From positions 831,309 to 895,308 of the forward strand of contig NZ_JANDBC010000001.1 in the NCBI RefSeq assembly GCF_024320785.1: a DNA stretch of 64,000 nucleotides. Reading direction: 5' to 3'. A program made the position numbers and the translations under genes. How positions within the stretch are numbered: the stretch's first letter is position 1; each line of letters begins with the position of its first letter. Of the stretch, positions 32,084 through 41,247 are shown in pieces. The notes beneath the pieces were generated by a model. The model had not been told where the DNA came from. It did no database searches and saw only the letters and a program-made list of their open reading frames with translations. This DNA comes from Gracilimonas sediminicola (GTDB taxonomy: Bacteria > Bacteroidota > Rhodothermia > Balneolales > Balneolaceae).

Positions 32084-32168
32084 AGAACACAGATTTAACG
32101 GATGCTGCGAATTTTCACGGATTAAAACAATCCGTGATTATCTGCTCAATCTGTGTCAACAGTGTTCT
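32084..32168. repeat. nested inverted repeat between LolA-like and permease genes
   Basis: Three arm sets nest: AGAACAC (32084-32090)/GTGTTCT (32162-32168), ACACAGATT (32087-32095)/AATCTGTGT (32148-32156) and TCACGGATT (32115-32123)/AATCCGTGA (32129-32137). The style matches widespread ACACAGATT/CACGGATT intergenic repeats of Bacteroidota. It sits within an operon, so it could also alter expression of the downstream genes. Confidence 0.8.
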
Positions 32169-32919
32169 ATTCAAGACGTTTCATATTCTGTATGCTGAAA
32201 AATTGTTTTGAGATATCGATATTGAACTCCAGGTTTTGGTAGGTAACGATGGTTTTGTTACCCTCATCTTCCAGCGGTATCATTTCCAATTTAGTGGGGA
32301 TTAATCTTCCTCCTATCTCTTTCACTTCTGAACCCTTCATGATTCTTACTAAAAAATCATCTTCATCATAAAACTCAGATCGCAACTGCAAATATTCATC
32401 TTTAGAAATAAAGGTATGAACCTTTGCCCATACAATGGGCGCTTCCGGTTTCGGTATCATTTCAATTCTGTAACAATCGTACCCGTTTATAGTGGTATCC
32501 TGCAAAAGCTTGTGGGTATAATCGGTAACGATCGAAGATTCCCTCACCAAATCGTTGTTTGAAAAGTCTGAACCCATCCAGGACTGACTCATCATAGACG
32601 GGGGCATTTTAATAGTTCGGTTTACATCCGGCAGCCAATTCCAGATTTCATTCTCTCTCATTAGAAAAGCTGTACCCTCGTCTCTTGCAGGCGCTGTAAT
32701 CAAAATAAGGCTGAAATCTTCTCCTTTGCTCCAGCTCTTAAAGGAAACACTTCGCTCCCAATTCGGACGGACAATCTGCATGGTCATCTCAGCTTTTGAG
32801 CTTTCACCCTGCATCCTTTCGTTAGCTTGTTCAATAATTTGTGTAGCGTCCTGTGCCGGCAAACATTCACATAAAACAAATGCGGCTAATAAAAACAGTG
32901 ATAGTGACTTAAGCATCAT
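32167..32919 (-). CDS. LolA-like outer-membrane lipoprotein-sorting protein
   Basis: About 250 residues with a signal peptide ending CLPAQ. The mature part has the LolA half-barrel look: EQANERMQGESSKAEMTMQIVRPNW, WSKGEDFSLILITAPARDEGTAFL, WNWLPDVNRTIKMPPSMM, and a C-terminal NLEFNIDISKQFF. Such proteins carry lipids or lipoproteins across the periplasm. The start at 32919 (two consecutive ATGs) is chosen because AGGAGG sits 3 bases upstream; an ATG 19 codons earlier gives an unlikely Cys-rich leader. It is the promoter-proximal gene of the ABC/barrel operon. Confidence 0.85.
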   Translation of the reverse strand: MMLKSLSLFLLAAFVLCECLPAQDATQIIEQANERMQGESSKAEMTMQIVRPNWERSVSFKSWSKGEDFSLILITAPARDEGTAFLMRENEIWNWLPDVNRTIKMPPSMMSQSWMGSDFSNNDLVRESSIVTDYTHKLLQDTTINGYDCYRIEMIPKPEAPIVWAKVHTFISKDEYLQLRSEFYDEDDFLVRIMKGSEVKEIGGRLIPTKLEMIPLEDEGNKTIVTYQNLEFNIDISKQFFSIQNMKRLE

Positions 32920-33031: not shown

Positions 33032-33643
33032 TTAAATCTTCACTTTTTCAGGGGAGTACACCATGTCGAGAAAGTTTTGCAAAATCATGGATCCCACGCT
33101 GCCTGATTTTTCAGGGTGAAATTGTACCCCAACGAAGTTGTCTTTGGCAACGATGGCGGAAAAATCATTAATATAGTTACAGGTTGCCAGGGTATATTCA
33201 CCTACCGGTGCGTAATAACTGTGCACAAAGTAGAGATAGTGCTTATCAATCAGATTTTTGAGAATAGCATGCTTTTGGGGATCATGAAGTTTATTCCACC
33301 CCATGTGTGGCACTTTTGCCTGAGTCTCGTTAAACTTCTTTAGGGAGCCGGGGATAATCCCGAGGCCAACCGTATCACCTTCCGTGGAGGACTCAAATAA
33401 TAGCTGCATTCCCACACAAATCCCCAAAACCGGTTTATCTGTAAGTTTCAGCCATTGATCCACTCCCTTTTCTTCGAGCGATTTCATAGCTGCACTGGCG
33501 TGTCCAACACCGGGAAATATCACTGCTTTTGCCTGTTCCAGTTCTTCAGGGGTTTCTGCAAAGAAAAATTGTGCGCCCAGTCTGTCGAGTGCATTTGCGA
33601 CAGAGGCAGTGTTTCCGGCCTTATACTTGATGATTCCTATCAT
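33032..33643 (-). CDS. hisH: imidazole glycerol phosphate synthase, glutamine amidotransferase subunit
   Basis: HisH hydrolyses glutamine and passes ammonia to HisF, producing imidazole glycerol phosphate and AICAR. 203 residues is the usual length. The class I glutaminase triad is visible: nucleophile Cys in GICVGMQLL (about residue 77) and the His/Glu pair in VQFHPEKSG (about 181-183). Last gene of the his cluster seen here; the partner hisF is not in the window. It begins 7 bases after hisB. Confidence 0.96.
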   Translation of the reverse strand: MIGIIKYKAGNTASVANALDRLGAQFFFAETPEELEQAKAVIFPGVGHASAAMKSLEEKGVDQWLKLTDKPVLGICVGMQLLFESSTEGDTVGLGIIPGSLKKFNETQAKVPHMGWNKLHDPQKHAILKNLIDKHYLYFVHSYYAPVGEYTLATCNYINDFSAIVAKDNFVGVQFHPEKSGSVGSMILQNFLDMVYSPEKVKI

Positions 33644-33650
33644 AAATAAT

Positions 33651-34535
33651 CTACAACGTCCCTTTCGAACTTGGGATCAGATTTTTGATGCGCCCGTTCT
33701 GTTCTATAGCCATCTTTAAAGCCCGGGCTAAACCCTTAAAGCATGCTTCAATTTTGTGGTGATCATTTTCACCTGAAAAGCTAACATGAATCGTTGCCTT
33801 CAAGTTCATTGCCAGGCTATAAAAAAAATGTTTTATCATCTCGGTAGGCATATCGCCTACATACTCTCTCTTGAAGTCGCCTTCAAACACTAAAAACGGA
33901 CGTCCGGACAGGTCTACCGCCACTGTAGCCTGTGCTTCATCCATCGGCAGAACAAAGCCATATCGCTCAATACCCTTCTTATTTCCAAGGGCTTTGGTGA
34001 TCACTTCACCCAATGCGATGGCCACATCTTCGATGGTATGATGTTCGTCCACTTCCAGATCCCCTTTACAAGTCAGCTTAAGGTCAATTAAACCATGGCG
34101 TGCAATTTGATCCAGCATGTGATCAAAAAAGTTCAATCCGGTGGATATATCGGCCTTTCCGGTTCCGTCCAGGTTTATATTGATGCTGATATCCGTTTCA
34201 TTGGTCTTTCGCTCAAGAGATGCCTTTCGGGCTTCCCGGGTAATGAACCTCACCACAGCTTCCCAGTTTTCAGAGGACAGCAGCTCGTTCTCTTCTTTAA
34301 GCAGTTGCAGCTGCTGTTCAGAACCGGAAATCACTAAATCAGCTTCTCCTTCTTTTTCATAGGAGATGTGCTCCTGATCCAACAATAAAGCCTGTTCTTC
34401 AACAATCTCTGCATCCTCTATCAATAAAGTATGGCCGGACTCGCAGATCTTTTTTAATGAGATAAGAGAATTCTTCCTGAAACTGAACTTCTCATCAGGA
34501 TCGGAAAGTGCATTTTTTGTGATAGCTATTAACAT
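33651..34535 (-). CDS. hisB: imidazoleglycerol-phosphate dehydratase with degenerate N-terminal domain
   Basis: The C-terminal 195 residues are a complete IGP dehydratase (Mn-binding motifs NFFDHMLDQIARHG and DEHHTIEDVAIALG, then HHKIEACFKGLARAL). The N-terminal 100 residues are extra. Their position and length suggest a shrunken remnant of the histidinol-phosphatase (HAD) domain found in bifunctional HisB, but the DxDxT nucleophile motif is absent and only about two thirds of the length is left. So this step's phosphatase is probably elsewhere. Start is the only ATG in reach. Confidence 0.94.
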   Translation of the reverse strand: MLIAITKNALSDPDEKFSFRKNSLISLKKICESGHTLLIEDAEIVEEQALLLDQEHISYEKEGEADLVISGSEQQLQLLKEENELLSSENWEAVVRFITREARKASLERKTNETDISININLDGTGKADISTGLNFFDHMLDQIARHGLIDLKLTCKGDLEVDEHHTIEDVAIALGEVITKALGNKKGIERYGFVLPMDEAQATVAVDLSGRPFLVFEGDFKREYVGDMPTEMIKHFFYSLAMNLKATIHVSFSGENDHHKIEACFKGLARALKMAIEQNGRIKNLIPSSKGTL

Positions 34536-34591: not shown

Positions 34592-35647
34592 CTATTTAAT
34601 CTTATCTAAGGCTTCGAAAAACCGGTCGTTTTCTGCCTGAGTTCCAATGGTCAGCCTCAGACAGTCTTCGCAATGAGGTTCATTTCCCCGGTATCGAATG
34701 ATAACCCCTTCTTCAGCCATTTTTTTATACACATCCATGGCATTTTTAATCTTAAAGAGAATGAAGTTCGCATCGGTCGGGTACACATAGTCAACGGCCT
34801 CATACTTAATCAGCTTGTTGATGACCCGCTCCCTTTCTTTCAAAATGGACTTAATATTTGTAGTGATATTCCCCAGGTTGGAAAAGGCCTGTATTGCTTT
34901 TTTTGAGGTCAGCTTATTCACGTTATAGGGAGCCTTCACCTTCATCATGTATGATATTACCTCCGGGTTGGCCAGTGCAATTCCGAGCCTGATTCCCGCC
35001 AGGCCAAACGATTTAGACATGGTTTGCAACACTACGAGATTTGGAAAATCATTCAGGTTATTGGCCAGACTCCCCTGCCTGCTGAAGTCGATATAGGCTT
35101 CATCTACCACCACAATTCCGTTAAAACCTTCCAGCACCCTCACCACATCCGAAATATTCATGCTGTTTGCCGTTGGGTTGTTGGGCGAACAAATAAATAT
35201 GATTTTTGTTTCGGGCTGAACCGCATCCAGAATATTTTCCGGCTGAAGCTGAAATCCCTCGGTCAGCAGCACTTCATCTACCTGAACGTCATTGATGTTT
35301 GCCGATACTTTATACATTCCGTACGTTGGCGGGTTTACAATCACCCTGTCTTTTCCGGGGATACAAAACACCCGGAACAACAAATCAATGGCTTCATCGC
35401 TGCCTACTCCAACAAATACATTCTCTTTATGAACATCTCGGAAGGCTGCTATTTTTTCCCGCAACTCCTCCTGGTACGGCATCGGGTAACGGTTTAGCTC
35501 CAAATCGTCCTCAAAAGGAGCTCCCATACTGTTTTCGTTTGCATCCAGCAAAATTCCCCGGTCAAAATCATCCCGTGCACTTCGATAAGGCTTCAGGTTT
35601 CGGATGTTTTCCCGTACTAAGGCGTCAATATTTATTTGTTTGCTCAT
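34592..35647 (-). CDS. hisC: histidinol-phosphate aminotransferase
   Basis: A PLP-dependent class II aminotransferase of 351 residues that converts imidazole acetol phosphate to histidinol phosphate. Landmarks are DANENSMGAP near residue 34, ICSPNNPTANS (about 153-163), DEAYIDFS and the PLP lysine in SKSFGLAGIRLG (about 213-215). The C-terminal arginine region RYRGNEPHCEDCLRLTIG is typical. It lies 56 bases from hisB and 116 from hisD in the cluster. Confidence 0.96.
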   Translation of the reverse strand: MSKQINIDALVRENIRNLKPYRSARDDFDRGILLDANENSMGAPFEDDLELNRYPMPYQEELREKIAAFRDVHKENVFVGVGSDEAIDLLFRVFCIPGKDRVIVNPPTYGMYKVSANINDVQVDEVLLTEGFQLQPENILDAVQPETKIIFICSPNNPTANSMNISDVVRVLEGFNGIVVVDEAYIDFSRQGSLANNLNDFPNLVVLQTMSKSFGLAGIRLGIALANPEVISYMMKVKAPYNVNKLTSKKAIQAFSNLGNITTNIKSILKERERVINKLIKYEAVDYVYPTDANFILFKIKNAMDVYKKMAEEGVIIRYRGNEPHCEDCLRLTIGTQAENDRFFEALDKIK

Positions 35648-35763: not shown

Positions 35764-37050
35764 TTATTGTATGTCTTTTAACCGGATACTTACAGCATTT
35801 TTATGTGCCTGAAGCTCTTCCAATTCTGCGAGTTTTTCCACTGTGGGACCCAGATTTTTTAATCCTTCTTCACTCAGTACCTGCATGGTTACTGACTTTT
35901 GGAAGGCCGCAAGGTTTACCCCGCTGTACATCCGCGCATACCCATAGGTAGGCAGGGTGTGATTGGTTCCCGATGCATAATCACCTACGCTTTCCGGCGT
36001 AAACTGCCCCAGAAAAACAGAACCGGCATTGGTAATCTTTTCTGTATGACTTTCTGCTTCTCCCACATTCACAATTAAATGTTCAGGAGCATATTCATTT
36101 GAGAAGTCAAAGGCCTGATTCAGATCCTCTACCTTAAGTATAAAGCTATGTTCGAGGGCTTCTTTGGCAATGTCTTTTCGTGGAAGTTCCTGCAGCTGAT
36201 CTTCCAATTCCTGTTCCAGTTTTTTCAGATCAAAAGCAGCCGTGGCAACCAACACAACCTGGCTGTCTTGGCCATGCTCGGCCTGCGAAAGCAGATCTGC
36301 GGCAACATAAGCCGGATTTGCCTGCTCATCTGCTATTACCAATACTTCAGAAGGACCGGCCGGCATATCAATACTGATTTGAGCTTCCGAGTTTTGTAGA
36401 ATCATTTTTGCAGCCGTCACATACTGATTACCCGGCCCGAATATCTTATCCACTTTTGGGACCGATTCCGTACCGACAGCCATCGCTGCTACCGCCTGTG
36501 CTCCGCCGGCTTTCAGAATCGTTTCCACACCGGCTTTTTGTGCGATATAAATAATTTCAGGAGCTATGCTACCGTCTTTTCGGGGTGGAGTTGCCAGCAC
36601 TTTAGTAGAACAACCGGCAATCATAGCGGGGATGGTCAGCATCATAGCTGTTGATGGTAATACCGCCGTTCCACCCGGCACATAAAATCCTACCCGTTCG
36701 ATAGGTCTCGCCACCTTCATGCATCGTACGCCCGGCATGGTTTCAACTTCTAACGGAGCCGGAACCTGCGCTTTATGGAAGGCATAAATATTGTCGAATG
36801 CCGTATCAATAGCCTCTTTTGCTTCTTTTGATAACGATACTTCCTGCTTCATCGGGTTGAAACAGACCTCATCCAAATCTACCCCATCAAACTTATGGGT
36901 AAACCTTCTGACCGCTTCATCCCCATCGTTTTCAACTTCATTGATGATAGGCTGAACCGTACCAAAAATAGAGGCGAAGTCAATCTTCGGTCGCTTCAGC
37001 AGCTCCGTGAGTTGTACCGGTTCTAAATCACTATAGTTATAAGTTCTCAT
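35764..37050 (-). CDS. hisD: histidinol dehydrogenase
   Basis: NAD-dependent zinc enzyme for the last two oxidations of histidine synthesis. About 428 residues. Landmarks are [37 protein letters not shown], the zinc-ligand region [12 protein letters not shown] and the [10 protein letters not shown] motif near the C-terminus. The start at 37050 (MRTYNYSDL) is preferred because the family begins here; an in-frame ATG 22 codons upstream would add an unrelated leader. It is followed by hisC. The 227-base gap to hisG holds a dispersed repeat. Confidence 0.95.
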
Positions 37051-37254
37051 TTCAATTTCATTATAGTTGAAGTAAGTGCCTCCAGGTAACGAAACGACCT
37101 GTAATGGGACAAGCAATAGTGTTCATATATCTGGCTTGGTAACACATGTTTTTCTTTATTCTCATAGTCGTTTTTGAACGCAAAGTCTTCGCAAAGCTCG
37201 CTAAGTTTTGGACTAATGCACTTTATGAATCAAATCACCCTTCAATATTGAATG

Positions 37255-37281
37255 TTCAATGTTCCTTGTTCGATATTCTAC
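37255..37281. repeat. copy 2 of a 27-base dispersed repeat
   Basis: Matches 28899-28925 at about 23 of 27 positions. It lies in the hisD-hisG gap and touches the hisG stop. Confidence 0.6.
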
Positions 37282-38159
37282 AAGATCATGCTTTCAATGG
37301 GCAGCATTACGATATCCGAAGCGCCTGCTTCTTTGAGTTCTTCCATCACTGTCCAGAATTTGTCCAGGGGAATCACGGTATGAATAGCTACCATATCGTT
37401 ATCCGCCAACGGCATCACCGTAGGGCTTTTCATGGAAGGGATAATCTCCTTAATCCTTTCCACATTAGATGTGGATGCATTCATCATAATGTATCGGCTT
37501 TTCGCAGCCTTTTGATAGCCGTCCATCCTCACTAAAAACCGTTCAATCAGCTCCTTTTTGCCGGGTGAAAGTTCTTTGTTGGTTCGGATGAGCTGGGTTT
37601 GTGAGTGCAGAATAGTATCCAGCTCAACCAGTCCGTTTGCTTTCAGTGTGCCCCCGCTGGAAACCAAATCCACAATGGCGTCGGCTACTTTAAGCTGAGG
37701 CGCAATTTCTACAGCTCCGGATATTTCAACGATCTGAATATTTATATCTCGTTCTTCGAAAAAACGGCGGGTCAAATTTGGATAGCTCGTTGCTACTTTC
37801 TTCCCTTCAAAATCCTGTGGCGACTGAATTTCTCCGTCTTTAGGTGCTGCTAATGAAAGCCGGCACTTCCCGTATTGAAGATCCCGTATCGGGGTTACAT
37901 CTGCACCGGTTTCCTGGGTTTCATTCGCTCCCACAAAACCCAGATCGCACACGCCATCCTGTACATACTCGGGGATGTCGTCATCGCGAAGTAATAATAG
38001 CTCAACATCAAAATTTCGAGTTTTAACAATCAGGTTCCGCTTGTAGTTATCGAACTCTATACCGATACCCTCGAGTAAGTCGATGGTCTTATCAGTCAGG
38101 CGACCGCTTTTTTGAATAGCAATACGTAAAGAGGTAGAAGAATCTTTTGTTCTGTTCAT
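37278..38159 (-). CDS. hisG: ATP phosphoribosyltransferase, long form
   Basis: First committed step of histidine synthesis: ATP plus PRPP. At 293 residues this is the long form with a C-terminal ACT-like regulatory domain, so it should be feedback-inhibited by histidine and does not need HisZ. Landmarks are RIAIQKSGRL at the start, DLGFVGANE, the PRPP-loop region DAIVDLVSSGGTLKANGL (about 158-175) and the regulatory tail beginning MMNASTSNVERI. First structural gene after the histidine-rich leader, 59 bases downstream of the leader stop. Confidence 0.96.
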   Translation of the reverse strand: MNRTKDSSTSLRIAIQKSGRLTDKTIDLLEGIGIEFDNYKRNLIVKTRNFDVELLLLRDDDIPEYVQDGVCDLGFVGANETQETGADVTPIRDLQYGKCRLSLAAPKDGEIQSPQDFEGKKVATSYPNLTRRFFEERDINIQIVEISGAVEIAPQLKVADAIVDLVSSGGTLKANGLVELDTILHSQTQLIRTNKELSPGKKELIERFLVRMDGYQKAAKSRYIMMNASTSNVERIKEIIPSMKSPTVMPLADNDMVAIHTVIPLDKFWTVMEELKEAGASDIVMLPIESMIL

Positions 38160-38205
38160 GAAATTAGTAAGTAATAAGAATTAGAAAATAGGTAGATAAA
38201 AGGTC

Positions 38206-38266
38206 AAAAAAGGTGCAATTAATGCACATGGATATGATGATGTCCGCGATGGGCATGATGGACATC
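38206..38266 (-). promoter_or_regulatory. his attenuator: alternative hairpins and T-run
   Basis: On the minus strand, GATGTCC/GGACATC (38260-38266 with 38239-38245) forms a hairpin inside the leader codons. GTGCA/TGCAC (38223-38227 with 38213-38217, 5-base loop) forms a second over the leader stop and is followed by six T (38211-38206). The second is terminator-like but short. Ribosome position on the His codons could decide which forms. Confidence 0.55.
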
Positions 38267-38305
38267 GAGCGAAAGATGATGGATATGTAGGAGTGCGTCT
38301 TCCAT
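38219..38305 (-). CDS. hisL: histidine-rich leader peptide of the his operon
   Basis: A 28-codon frame begins at ATG 38305 and ends at TAA 38219. It has 11 histidines at positions 7, 9, 10, 16, 17, 19, 22, 23, 24, 26 and 28, including a run of three. It lies directly upstream of hisG on the same strand. Such a composition is the hallmark of transcription attenuation: ribosomes stall on His codons when charged tRNA-His is scarce. Its start lies only 5 bases past the promoter element, so it may be translated from a leaderless or near-leaderless mRNA. Naming by position and content; the peptide has no assumed cellular role. Confidence 0.85.
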   Translation of the reverse strand: MEDALLHIHHLSLDVHHAHRGHHHIHVH

Positions 38306-38310
38306 TGCTT

Positions 38311-38342
38311 CAAATATAGGCAAAGCTTTGTTATTGGGTCAA
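38311..38342 (-). promoter_or_regulatory. promoter of the his leader/operon
   Basis: TTG (38342-38340), a 21-base spacer, then TATATTTG (38318-38311), a perfect Bacteroidota-type element. The same spacing and box occur upstream of the tRNA-Leu gene in this window. Transcription should begin within a few bases of the leader ATG. Confidence 0.8.
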
Positions 38343-40239: not shown

Positions 40240-41247
40240 TTACTTAAAAATATCCTTTGGAATATGCATAGAAACCAACATATGAGGCACATCCACCACC
40301 TCAGCTATTTTCAGGTCTCCGGCCAGCGAACATAGCGCATATGCATCCTGTCGATCCATGCCTTTCTCTTCCTCTAAGAAATCAATCATATATCGGGTAG
40401 CTTTCCTGGCCGCCTCATCAATGGTGGTTGCAAAAGCAGTAACCGCGTAATAGTCATCTGTCTCATATTGTGGCTCGCTGATTGTCCTTCCACCTTTAAT
40501 CACCTCCACTTCATAAATAATATTCATGGGTGCTTCTATAGCAGTACCACAAACTTCTCCGTGTCCCTGGGCGGCATGGGTATCTCCTATCGAGAATAAG
40601 GCCCCCTCCACTAACACCGGGAAATAAACTACGGAACCTTCGGTGATGTTCGGATCATCCATATTCCCACCATTTTCCCGGGGAGGAATGGTTGACAGCA
40701 TTTCTTCGGTATCAGGAGCAACTCCCATCACTCCCGGAAACGGCTTTAGCGGGATCTCGATATTCTCAGAAAATTTCGCTGTTTTTTTATCTTTACCCAG
40801 CTCAAACGTTTTCAGGTAGGGCTCAGTGAATTCATCAGCCAAAAATCCAAAACCGGGCACGATGGCGGTCCAGCCCCAATCGCCCATCTCAATTTTGTGA
40901 AGGGTTACTTTAAGGACGTCTCCGGGCTCGGCATTCTCCACATACACGGGGCCGGTTAGCGGATGAATGGGATCAAAACTCAAATTGGCTAAATCTTCTA
41001 AGGTAGAATTTACATCCAGCTGTTGATCAGAAGCTTCTTCAGTTCCAACTTTTATGACTGAACCTGATGGAACCGTCAACACCGGTTCAATGGCGCTGCT
41101 CCAGCGGTTATGTGTTTGATCGGATGTAAGCTCAAAATCAACTTCAGGAGCCTGAGTTGTTGACTCCTTTTCCATATCTACTTCCACACAACCTGTGTTG
41201 ACAAACATTAACAGTGCCGATAAAATATAAAATGATACCCTAAACAT
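40240..41247 (-). CDS. acetamidase/formamidase family lipoprotein
   Basis: 335 residues with a lipoprotein signal (NTGC, acylated C20) and the FmdA-type core: VYVENAEPGDVLKVTLH, GDWGWTAIVPGFGFLAD, YFPVLVEGALFSIGDTHAAQGHGEVCGTAIE (about residues 211-241). A lipid-anchored version of a normally cytoplasmic amidase family is unusual but seen in Bacteroidota. Substrate unknown; release of ammonia from short amides is the family reaction. 36 bases upstream of the M28 gene, so they may share a transcript. Confidence 0.88.
   Translation of the reverse strand: MFRVSFYILSALLMFVNTGCVEVDMEKESTTQAPEVDFELTSDQTHNRWSSAIEPVLTVPSGSVIKVGTEEASDQQLDVNSTLEDLANLSFDPIHPLTGPVYVENAEPGDVLKVTLHKIEMGDWGWTAIVPGFGFLADEFTEPYLKTFELGKDKKTAKFSENIEIPLKPFPGVMGVAPDTEEMLSTIPPRENGGNMDDPNITEGSVVYFPVLVEGALFSIGDTHAAQGHGEVCGTAIEAPMNIIYEVEVIKGGRTISEPQYETDDYYAVTAFATTIDEAARKATRYMIDFLEEEKGMDRQDAYALCSLAGDLKIAEVVDVPHMLVSMHIPKDIFK

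Follow-up and report, generated by a model that had tools for sequence, protein, structure and literature searches.

A conserved histidine-rich leader frame ahead of hisG in the Balneolaceae that mostly lacks an intrinsic terminator

Introduction

The usual account of amino-acid attenuation gives it a fixed set of parts, in which leader codons are combined with an antiterminator and an intrinsic terminator. A histidine-rich frame placed directly ahead of hisG in Gracilimonas sediminicola raises the question of whether leader-peptide sensing can be kept when the terminator is missing, and of what would then act in its place. Within the phylum, leader-peptide attenuation at amino-acid operons has been described for Flavobacterium psychrophilum and other Flavobacteriaceae, with a conserved 5′ element at hisG in F. 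psychrophilum and its relatives (PMC9723704), and short open reading frames ‘reminiscent of leader peptides’ are reported for Bacteroides thetaiotaomicron (PMC7366714). A published his gene survey with Balneolota among its taxa uses the word ‘attenuation’ once, in its general introduction, and ‘leader’ never (PMC8305728). No account of Balneolota leader peptides was found in the literature searched, which lay mostly outside the subscription journals.

Results

The window, i.e., the whole stretch of 64,000 nucleotides analyzed, carries on its minus strand the genes hisGDCBH, in that order, followed by a LolA-like gene; a divergent OsmC-like gene lies upstream of the his leader. hisG (ATP phosphoribosyltransferase; Pfam HisG and HisG_C) occupies positions 37278..38159, with its start at 38159, and its product is 90% identical to HisG of Gracilimonas amylolytica. 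The lineage guess of the earlier note agrees with the Balneolaceae placement. It is followed by hisD (histidinol dehydrogenase; 35764..37116, start position approximate) and, beyond a hisC-type aminotransferase (34592..35647), by hisB (imidazoleglycerol-phosphate dehydratase; 33651..34535), both hisD and hisB being assigned by Pfam, and by a hisH-type glutamine amidotransferase (33032..33643; Pfam GATase). Pfam gives the fold class only for the aminotransferase, and hisC and hisH are named by context. Between the box TATATTTG and hisG, on the operon strand, lies a frame of 28 codons, 11 of them for His (38219..38305, minus strand; ATG at 38305, TAA at 38219), which encodes the peptide MEDALLHIHHLSLDVHHAHRGHHHIHVH; the earlier note had described this arrangement correctly. 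The window holds one other His-rich short frame, at 40264-40335 on the plus strand, within an open reading frame of the opposite strand and probably there by chance.

hisG was found in 87 of the 92 Balneolaceae genomes searched. Two genomes with partial genes only (G027 and G050) were left out, and the remaining 85 provided 86 loci, G077 contributing two; the family set of 80 leaders excludes L082, L084 and L085 (no tblastn match in the piece), L083 (divergent HisG, no leader) and L059 and L060 (upstream sequence too short). The frame itself was counted in the 81 regions that extend 250 bases or more upstream, L083 among them, as 10-45 codons with at least five His and at least 20% His, within 250 nt 5′ of hisG. 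Such a frame, for which the earlier note had proposed a search in relatives, is present in sense orientation in 75 of the 81 regions and in antisense orientation in none; like all family counts given here, these refer to related genomes, some near-identical, and not to independent events. The same definition is satisfied by 0.25% of shuffled regions. Six regions do not qualify, namely three leaders of Fodinibius type that have four His as called (L013, L019, L034), two leaders with five His in 31 residues (L040 and L042) and L083. As called, the 80 leaders encode 16-45 residues, with a median of 24 codons and eight His, and begin with GTG (41), ATG (34) or TTG (5), some of these starts being wrong because the caller chooses the start that maximizes His density. 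Non-His residues and the start codon vary; the His content and the position ahead of hisG are kept. Among 47 related pairs of leaders, which are not independent, third codon positions vary most (283, vs. 188 and 163 for the others), and His is conserved in 81% of the comparisons vs. 70% for other residues. By these comparisons, the His leader frame ahead of hisG is a conserved feature of the Balneolaceae and not a product of chance, and since it occurs in 75 of 81 regions in sense and in 0 of 81 in antisense, His-responsive control of hisGDCBH by the leader is very likely.

A divergent HisG (41-45% identity) is found in four members of the family (G036, G082, G089 and G090); the upstream region was examined for one of these, L083 of G082, and lacks a His leader, so that hisG and leader may have been replaced together.

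Beyond the family, a frame with at least seven His was recognized by eye in 9 of the 19 loci fetched from other Balneolales families (L168-L186, counted irrespective of whether hisG heads its operon there). Loss of the frame with retention of the hairpins in close relatives, the pattern that the earlier note had named as contrary to its model, was not seen within the Balneolaceae, where it is the frame that is kept and the U-run that mostly is not; it is in the other Balneolales families that about half of the fetched loci are without the frame. Outside the class, a short His frame precedes hisG at 30 of 39 loci, again by eye (among L208-L257); these 30 leaders, two with only three His and one (L217) entered one codon too late, make up our outgroup. 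Given this count and the Flavobacterium precedent (PMC9723704), the rarity that the earlier note had suggested for leader control of his genes in the lineage is not supported. The Balneolaceae leaders share gene, phylum and a short His frame with the other Bacteroidota His leaders (PMC9723704), and from the shared position, a common origin is likely.

The box TATATTTG (38311..38318, minus strand) matches the Bacteroidota sigma-A −7 box, and a −33-like element, TTGACC, lies at 38337..38342 on the same strand; a scan for sigma-70-type promoters found one, where shuffles led to an expectation of 2.2, and thus no enrichment. In the family, the best TAnnTTTG-like box begins 12-13 nt 5′ of the called start in 50 of the 80 leaders (27 perfect), about four being expected if boxes were evenly placed over the 39 offsets scanned, and six further leaders (L006, L034, L046, L056, L072 and L076) fit this spacing with an upstream in-frame start. 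Counting perfect boxes only, 4 of 54 open reading frames of the window have one within 120 bases upstream, at distances of 32, 34, 62 and 100, and none at 12-13. Since the −7 box of F. psychrophilum extends from −12 to −5 (PMC9723704), a box beginning 12-13 nt from the start predicts a 5′ untranslated region of 0-1 nt. If the Flavobacterium box coordinate applies here, +1 in the window would be position 38306, one base before the A of the ATG at 38305. Thus, the His leader is predicted to be leaderless, its RNA starting with the start codon itself or with the preceding base. For the phylum, leaderless mRNAs are reported to be rare and Shine-Dalgarno sequences to be absent; leaderless mRNAs make up 5.5% in F. 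psychrophilum (PMC9723704), and about 3.7% of the 5′ untranslated regions of B. thetaiotaomicron are shorter than 10 nt (PMC7366714).

Two hairpins can be drawn in the leader RNA. P2 (GAUGUCC..GGACAUC; 38239..38266, minus strand) lies inside the frame and folds with −9.8 kcal/mol (z −1.78; equalled by 9 of 200 shuffles), and P3 (GUGCA-UUAAU-UGCAC; 38213..38227, minus strand), with a 5-bp stem and −6.1 kcal/mol (z −2.64; 3 of 200 shuffles as good), has the leader stop TAA in its loop and is followed on its 3′ side by six T (38206..38211, minus strand), mostly not kept in the family. The fold of the leader as a whole is no better than that of shuffles (z −0.65; 56 of 200). The earlier note had called the two hairpins mutually placed; they do not overlap and both are present in the minimum-energy fold, so they are not mutually exclusive alternatives. 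A mutually exclusive antiterminator was not found, no helix competing with P3 in the minimum-energy fold of the window with an early-stalled ribosome. P2 was rejected as an independently selected element, being no better than synonymous-codon resampling of the window leader (p 0.88), and in-frame folding of this type beats resampling (p ≤ 0.05) in just 7 of the 80 family leaders.

The helix around the stop codon fares differently. Scored as the best helix enclosing the stop codon against shuffles of its downstream side, it reaches p ≤ 0.05 in 32 of 84 leaders (4.2 expected) and p ≤ 0.1 in 45 (8.4 expected), the 84 comprising the 80 of the family and four of other Balneolales families, some near-identical. 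A separate duplex test on 67 of the 80 family leaders gave p < 0.05 in 22 (3.4 expected). The arms change together, as GUGCA:UGCAC, UGUGC:GCACA, ACGCA:UGCGU, AUGCGC:GCGCAU and CAUUGC:GCAAUG, and the ACGCA:UGCGU pair is also found in L185, L186 and L154, of another family. By this comparison, the hairpin over the leader stop codon is real and covaries, which bears out the covariation that the earlier note had proposed to look for. A helix of the kind searched is absent in 23 of the 84 leaders, including most Fodinibius types, the g19 group, and L067, L071 and L073. Different hairpins are found in the Fodinibius types, with GGCGGU..ACCGUC surrounding the end of the leader and GUAGC..GCUAC 3′ of the stop, and L067, L071 and L073 have CUGUGC:GCACAG arms that lie outside the reach of the search. 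RNAalifold, applied to aligned leader-to-hisG regions, returned no structure for the Gracilimonas/Balneola (22 sequences) or Rhodohalobacter (28) sets, in our opinion because the loops vary, and hairpins for the Fodinibius set (12; covariation term 0.05, i.e., no support) and the g19 set (5; −2.16); pairing was thereafter scored by position instead of by alignment. In the g19 leaders (L041-L043, L050 and L053) a long helix, which in L041 has 12 bp (GGGGAUUUGUGC:GCGCAAAUCCCC), extends over the end of the leader and the sequence that follows it; it is the strongest candidate in the family for a switch helix. In the outgroup, such a stop-enclosing helix was scored in only 3 of 30 leaders (L210, L221 and L237), all three also without a terminator. 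These leaders, of family bins f38 (L210, L221) and f22 (L237), carry the stop codon in a hairpin loop, the loop-stop hairpins there being ATTCCTC-TTGA-GAGGAAT and ATCGCC-GATA-GGCGAT, and are possibly parallel changes.

The contrast between the Balneolaceae and the rest of the phylum concerns the terminator. Between leader and hisG, a stem of 6 bp or longer with a T-run is present in 5 of the 80 Balneolaceae leaders and in 23 of the 30 His leaders elsewhere in the phylum (e.g., AAACCCGTTTGAG..CAAACGGGTTT), with L244 resembling a 24th that is clipped at the edge of the scored region. In the outgroup, hairpin and T-run mostly lie about 20-50 nt past the leader stop, and several leaders have an in-frame arm, CTCAAGCG, able to pair with the terminator, one G-U included. 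Closer to the family, a hairpin with a T-run was seen by eye in family bin f10 of the same class, outside the Balneolales (L189-L192 and L198; such as GGCATTCCGGTC..GGATGCC), and in L179 and L184, which belong to a different family of the Balneolales. With a terminating ribosome modeled as blocking the RNA through the 12th base after the stop codon, the median energy of the remaining fold is −0.05 kcal/mol for the Balneolaceae vs. −21.3 for the outgroup, with values of −8 or lower in 6 of 80 vs. 28 of 30, for stretches of unequal length (family mean 75 nt, outgroup up to 120 nt). This energy is not specific for terminators, since the terminator-less L210 and L221 score −18. In the window, the remaining fold is 0.0 kcal/mol and no intrinsic terminator is predicted to form. 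The attenuator layout claimed in the earlier note is borne out only in part: the frame, the hairpin over the stop and the six T are there, but neither the terminator nor the sense of switching is supported (see Discussion). Across the sequences compared, Balneolaceae His leaders mostly lack an intrinsic terminator, and the hairpin seems to have been lost here.

The trpE leader of the same genome (L261; G000:C3, minus strand, about 3160-3020) encodes MKKQIVQINAWWWPVVTNNSGSRT, with three Trp codons, and unlike the his leader has both a terminator (AACCCAC..GTGGGTT with a T-run) and an in-frame pairing arm, AACAGTGGGT; its box, TATATTCG, lies 15 nt before the ATG, and the fold remaining with a ribosome at its stop is −26.0 kcal/mol, as in the outgroup. 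This textbook leader leads us to reject a genome-wide lack of intrinsic attenuators; the cell uses one, apparently not at hisG. A Phe-rich frame was not found in the approximately 110 nt upstream of the likely start of pheA, and TIGR00118 (ilvB) and TIGR00973 (leuA) had no match above cut-off in the whole genome (assembly 97% complete), so that there is no ilv or leu leader for comparison; branched-chain amino-acid synthesis may be absent from the genome. Imperfect inverted repeats, e.g., CGTTATTCGTGAATCG..CGATTCACGAATAACG, lie between the trp terminator and trpE (L261, about 3010-2945), and a similar-looking repeat lies between genes of the window (about 32090-32170), possibly a dispersed element.

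In the Balneolaceae, the stretch between leader and hisG is poor in G. In the window it spans 59 nt (38160..38218, minus strand) with G at 0.034, C at 0.22 and T at 0.54, and its minimum free energy is 0; a G content as low as this also occurs upstream of 1 of 32 other genes of the window (minimum 0.033). In 49 named family loci, the 60 nt 5′ of hisG have mean G 0.052 and C 0.266, vs. 0.157 and 0.203 for 91 other genes of those loci, and G ≤ 0.083 with C ≥ 0.2 is found upstream of 45 of 49 hisG genes vs. 11 of 91 others. From leader stop to hisG, the median G is 0.063 in the 80 family leaders vs. 0.168 in the 30 of the outgroup. G-poverty as a general mark of terminator-less leaders is unsupported, the terminator-less outgroup leaders L210, L221, L237 and L248 not being visibly G-poor. 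On average, 19.3 of 75 nt of the stretch are paired when a ribosome stalls early vs. 10.8 when it stands at the stop. Rho loads on G-poor, C-containing, unstructured RNA; by textbook standards the window stretch would make a poor rut site, having more U (0.54) than C (0.22), and the lack of G could just as well favor hisG translation. The genome has a rho gene that scores above cut-off, on C3; a second Rho-like gene (L259; G000:C1:1574122-1575225) reaches 406.8 bits, short of the rho cut-off (509).

Among the closest known systems is the hisL-type attenuator of the Escherichia coli his operon (RF00514), which likewise has a leader rich in His codons right before hisG; here, in contrast, there is no strong intrinsic terminator or demonstrable antiterminator, and the stop codon sits in the loop of a short helix. 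No Rfam model, His_leader (RF00514) included, matched the window leader at the gathering threshold, nor up to E 5 on the leader strand; the search gave one chance match (sR28, 10.4 bits, opposite strand), and eight other sources had no match either.

Discussion

We favor, tentatively and at somewhat less than even chances, the view that the leader is a His-tRNA-sensing attenuator of hisGDCBH whose intrinsic terminator has been lost, with Rho (most likely) or translation acting instead. To what sequence comparison provides, namely the frame and its conservation, the box spacing, the covarying stop helix, the G-poor stretch, the missing terminator and rho, the following scheme adds what we infer for the transcription start, for stalling, for Rho as the terminating agent and for the direction of control. 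The RNA would begin at the leader ATG or one base before it, and ribosomes would load on its 5′ end. Under a shortage of charged His-tRNA, stalling of a ribosome would occur early in the frame, and the end of the frame would pair across its own stop codon with downstream RNA (P3 in the window, longer in some genera); with this helix formed, transcription would read on into hisG. When histidine is ample, ribosomes would reach the stop codon and unfold the helix, exposing 50-120 nt of C-containing, G-poor, mostly unstructured RNA, on which Rho would load to terminate transcription before or early in hisG. The scheme has the right sign, because stalling would give the helix and readthrough, and finished translation an open helix and access for Rho. 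In its strongest form, a leaderless His frame would gate a Rho-type terminator through the stop-codon helix throughout the family, with tRNA sensing kept and the trp attenuator left classical; this we regard as possible and rather doubtful.

Comparable wiring is known from other genes. At corA, translation of the upstream frame corL lowers expression and goes with Rho termination, and another structure hides the pyrimidine-rich rut site; the same scheme has been proposed for mgtA and mgtL (PMC11552253). The signal there is Mg2+ and not an amino acid, and Rho was demonstrated there for corA (PMC11552253), whereas its part at hisG is proposed. In the window, the stretch after the his leader is G-poor and unstructured yet U-rich, and the covarying helix hides few bases on average.

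The best of the competing explanations, one we hold unlikely, is post-transcriptional: the ribosome on the leader would set hisG translation or mRNA decay, e.g., by ribosomes moving in from the 5′ end, transcription being constant. The G-poor, unstructured stretch up to the hisG start would suit initiation without a Shine-Dalgarno sequence, and the predicted leaderless start recalls the polycysteine leaders of mycobacteria, likewise leaderless one-amino-acid frames, for another amino acid and in another phylum, which reportedly (the work is Canestrari's, of 2020) attenuate operonic genes. Attenuators acting on the ribosome-binding site are known (PMC9413887). However, the window was folded as far as the hisG start codon, and in neither ribosome state does a structure involve the bases just ahead of it; simple sequestration of the start site is not seen in this fold.

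The Rho scheme must also be weighed against a classical intrinsic attenuator, with P3 and the six T as terminator and P2 in the alternative structure, which we consider improbable. A scan of 801 bp gave a single terminator-like site, P3 with its six T, where 0.5 were expected, and sites with a 5-bp stem and a T-run, the class to which P3 belongs, occur in 10 of the 80 Balneolaceae leaders, in excess of mononucleotide shuffles (2.3, sd 1.3). Yet P3 is weak, as its energy and short stem indicate, the T-run after it is not conserved in most relatives, and P2 and P3 are compatible with one another. A ribosome at the stop codon covers P3 and, in the window, leaves no fold behind; P3 would form when ribosomes lag or stall, and termination would therefore fall in His starvation, which is the wrong sign. 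P3 also takes in the last two sense codons of the frame, and from the known footprints of ribosome and RNA polymerase, these codons would be hidden when the U-run is transcribed, because a ribosome near the polymerase would cover them. On this geometry and on its poor conservation we rejected P3 as the regulated terminator, which it probably is not.

That the peptide itself acts, by binding metal or otherwise, or that the frame is incidental, is very improbable: 11 His in 28 residues would suit metal binding, of which His-rich peptides could be capable, but length, non-His residues and start codon vary while place and His content stay, short His-run frames with terminators occupy the same site elsewhere in the phylum, and antisense His-rich frames number 0 of 81.

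What the Balneolaceae present, then, is a sensor, the His codons at hisG, kept across the family with the terminator hairpin mostly absent; in the window's own genome the textbook trp attenuator serves as an internal control for the comparison. The family thus lets one ask whether Rho or translation can take over from an intrinsic terminator in leader-peptide sensing.
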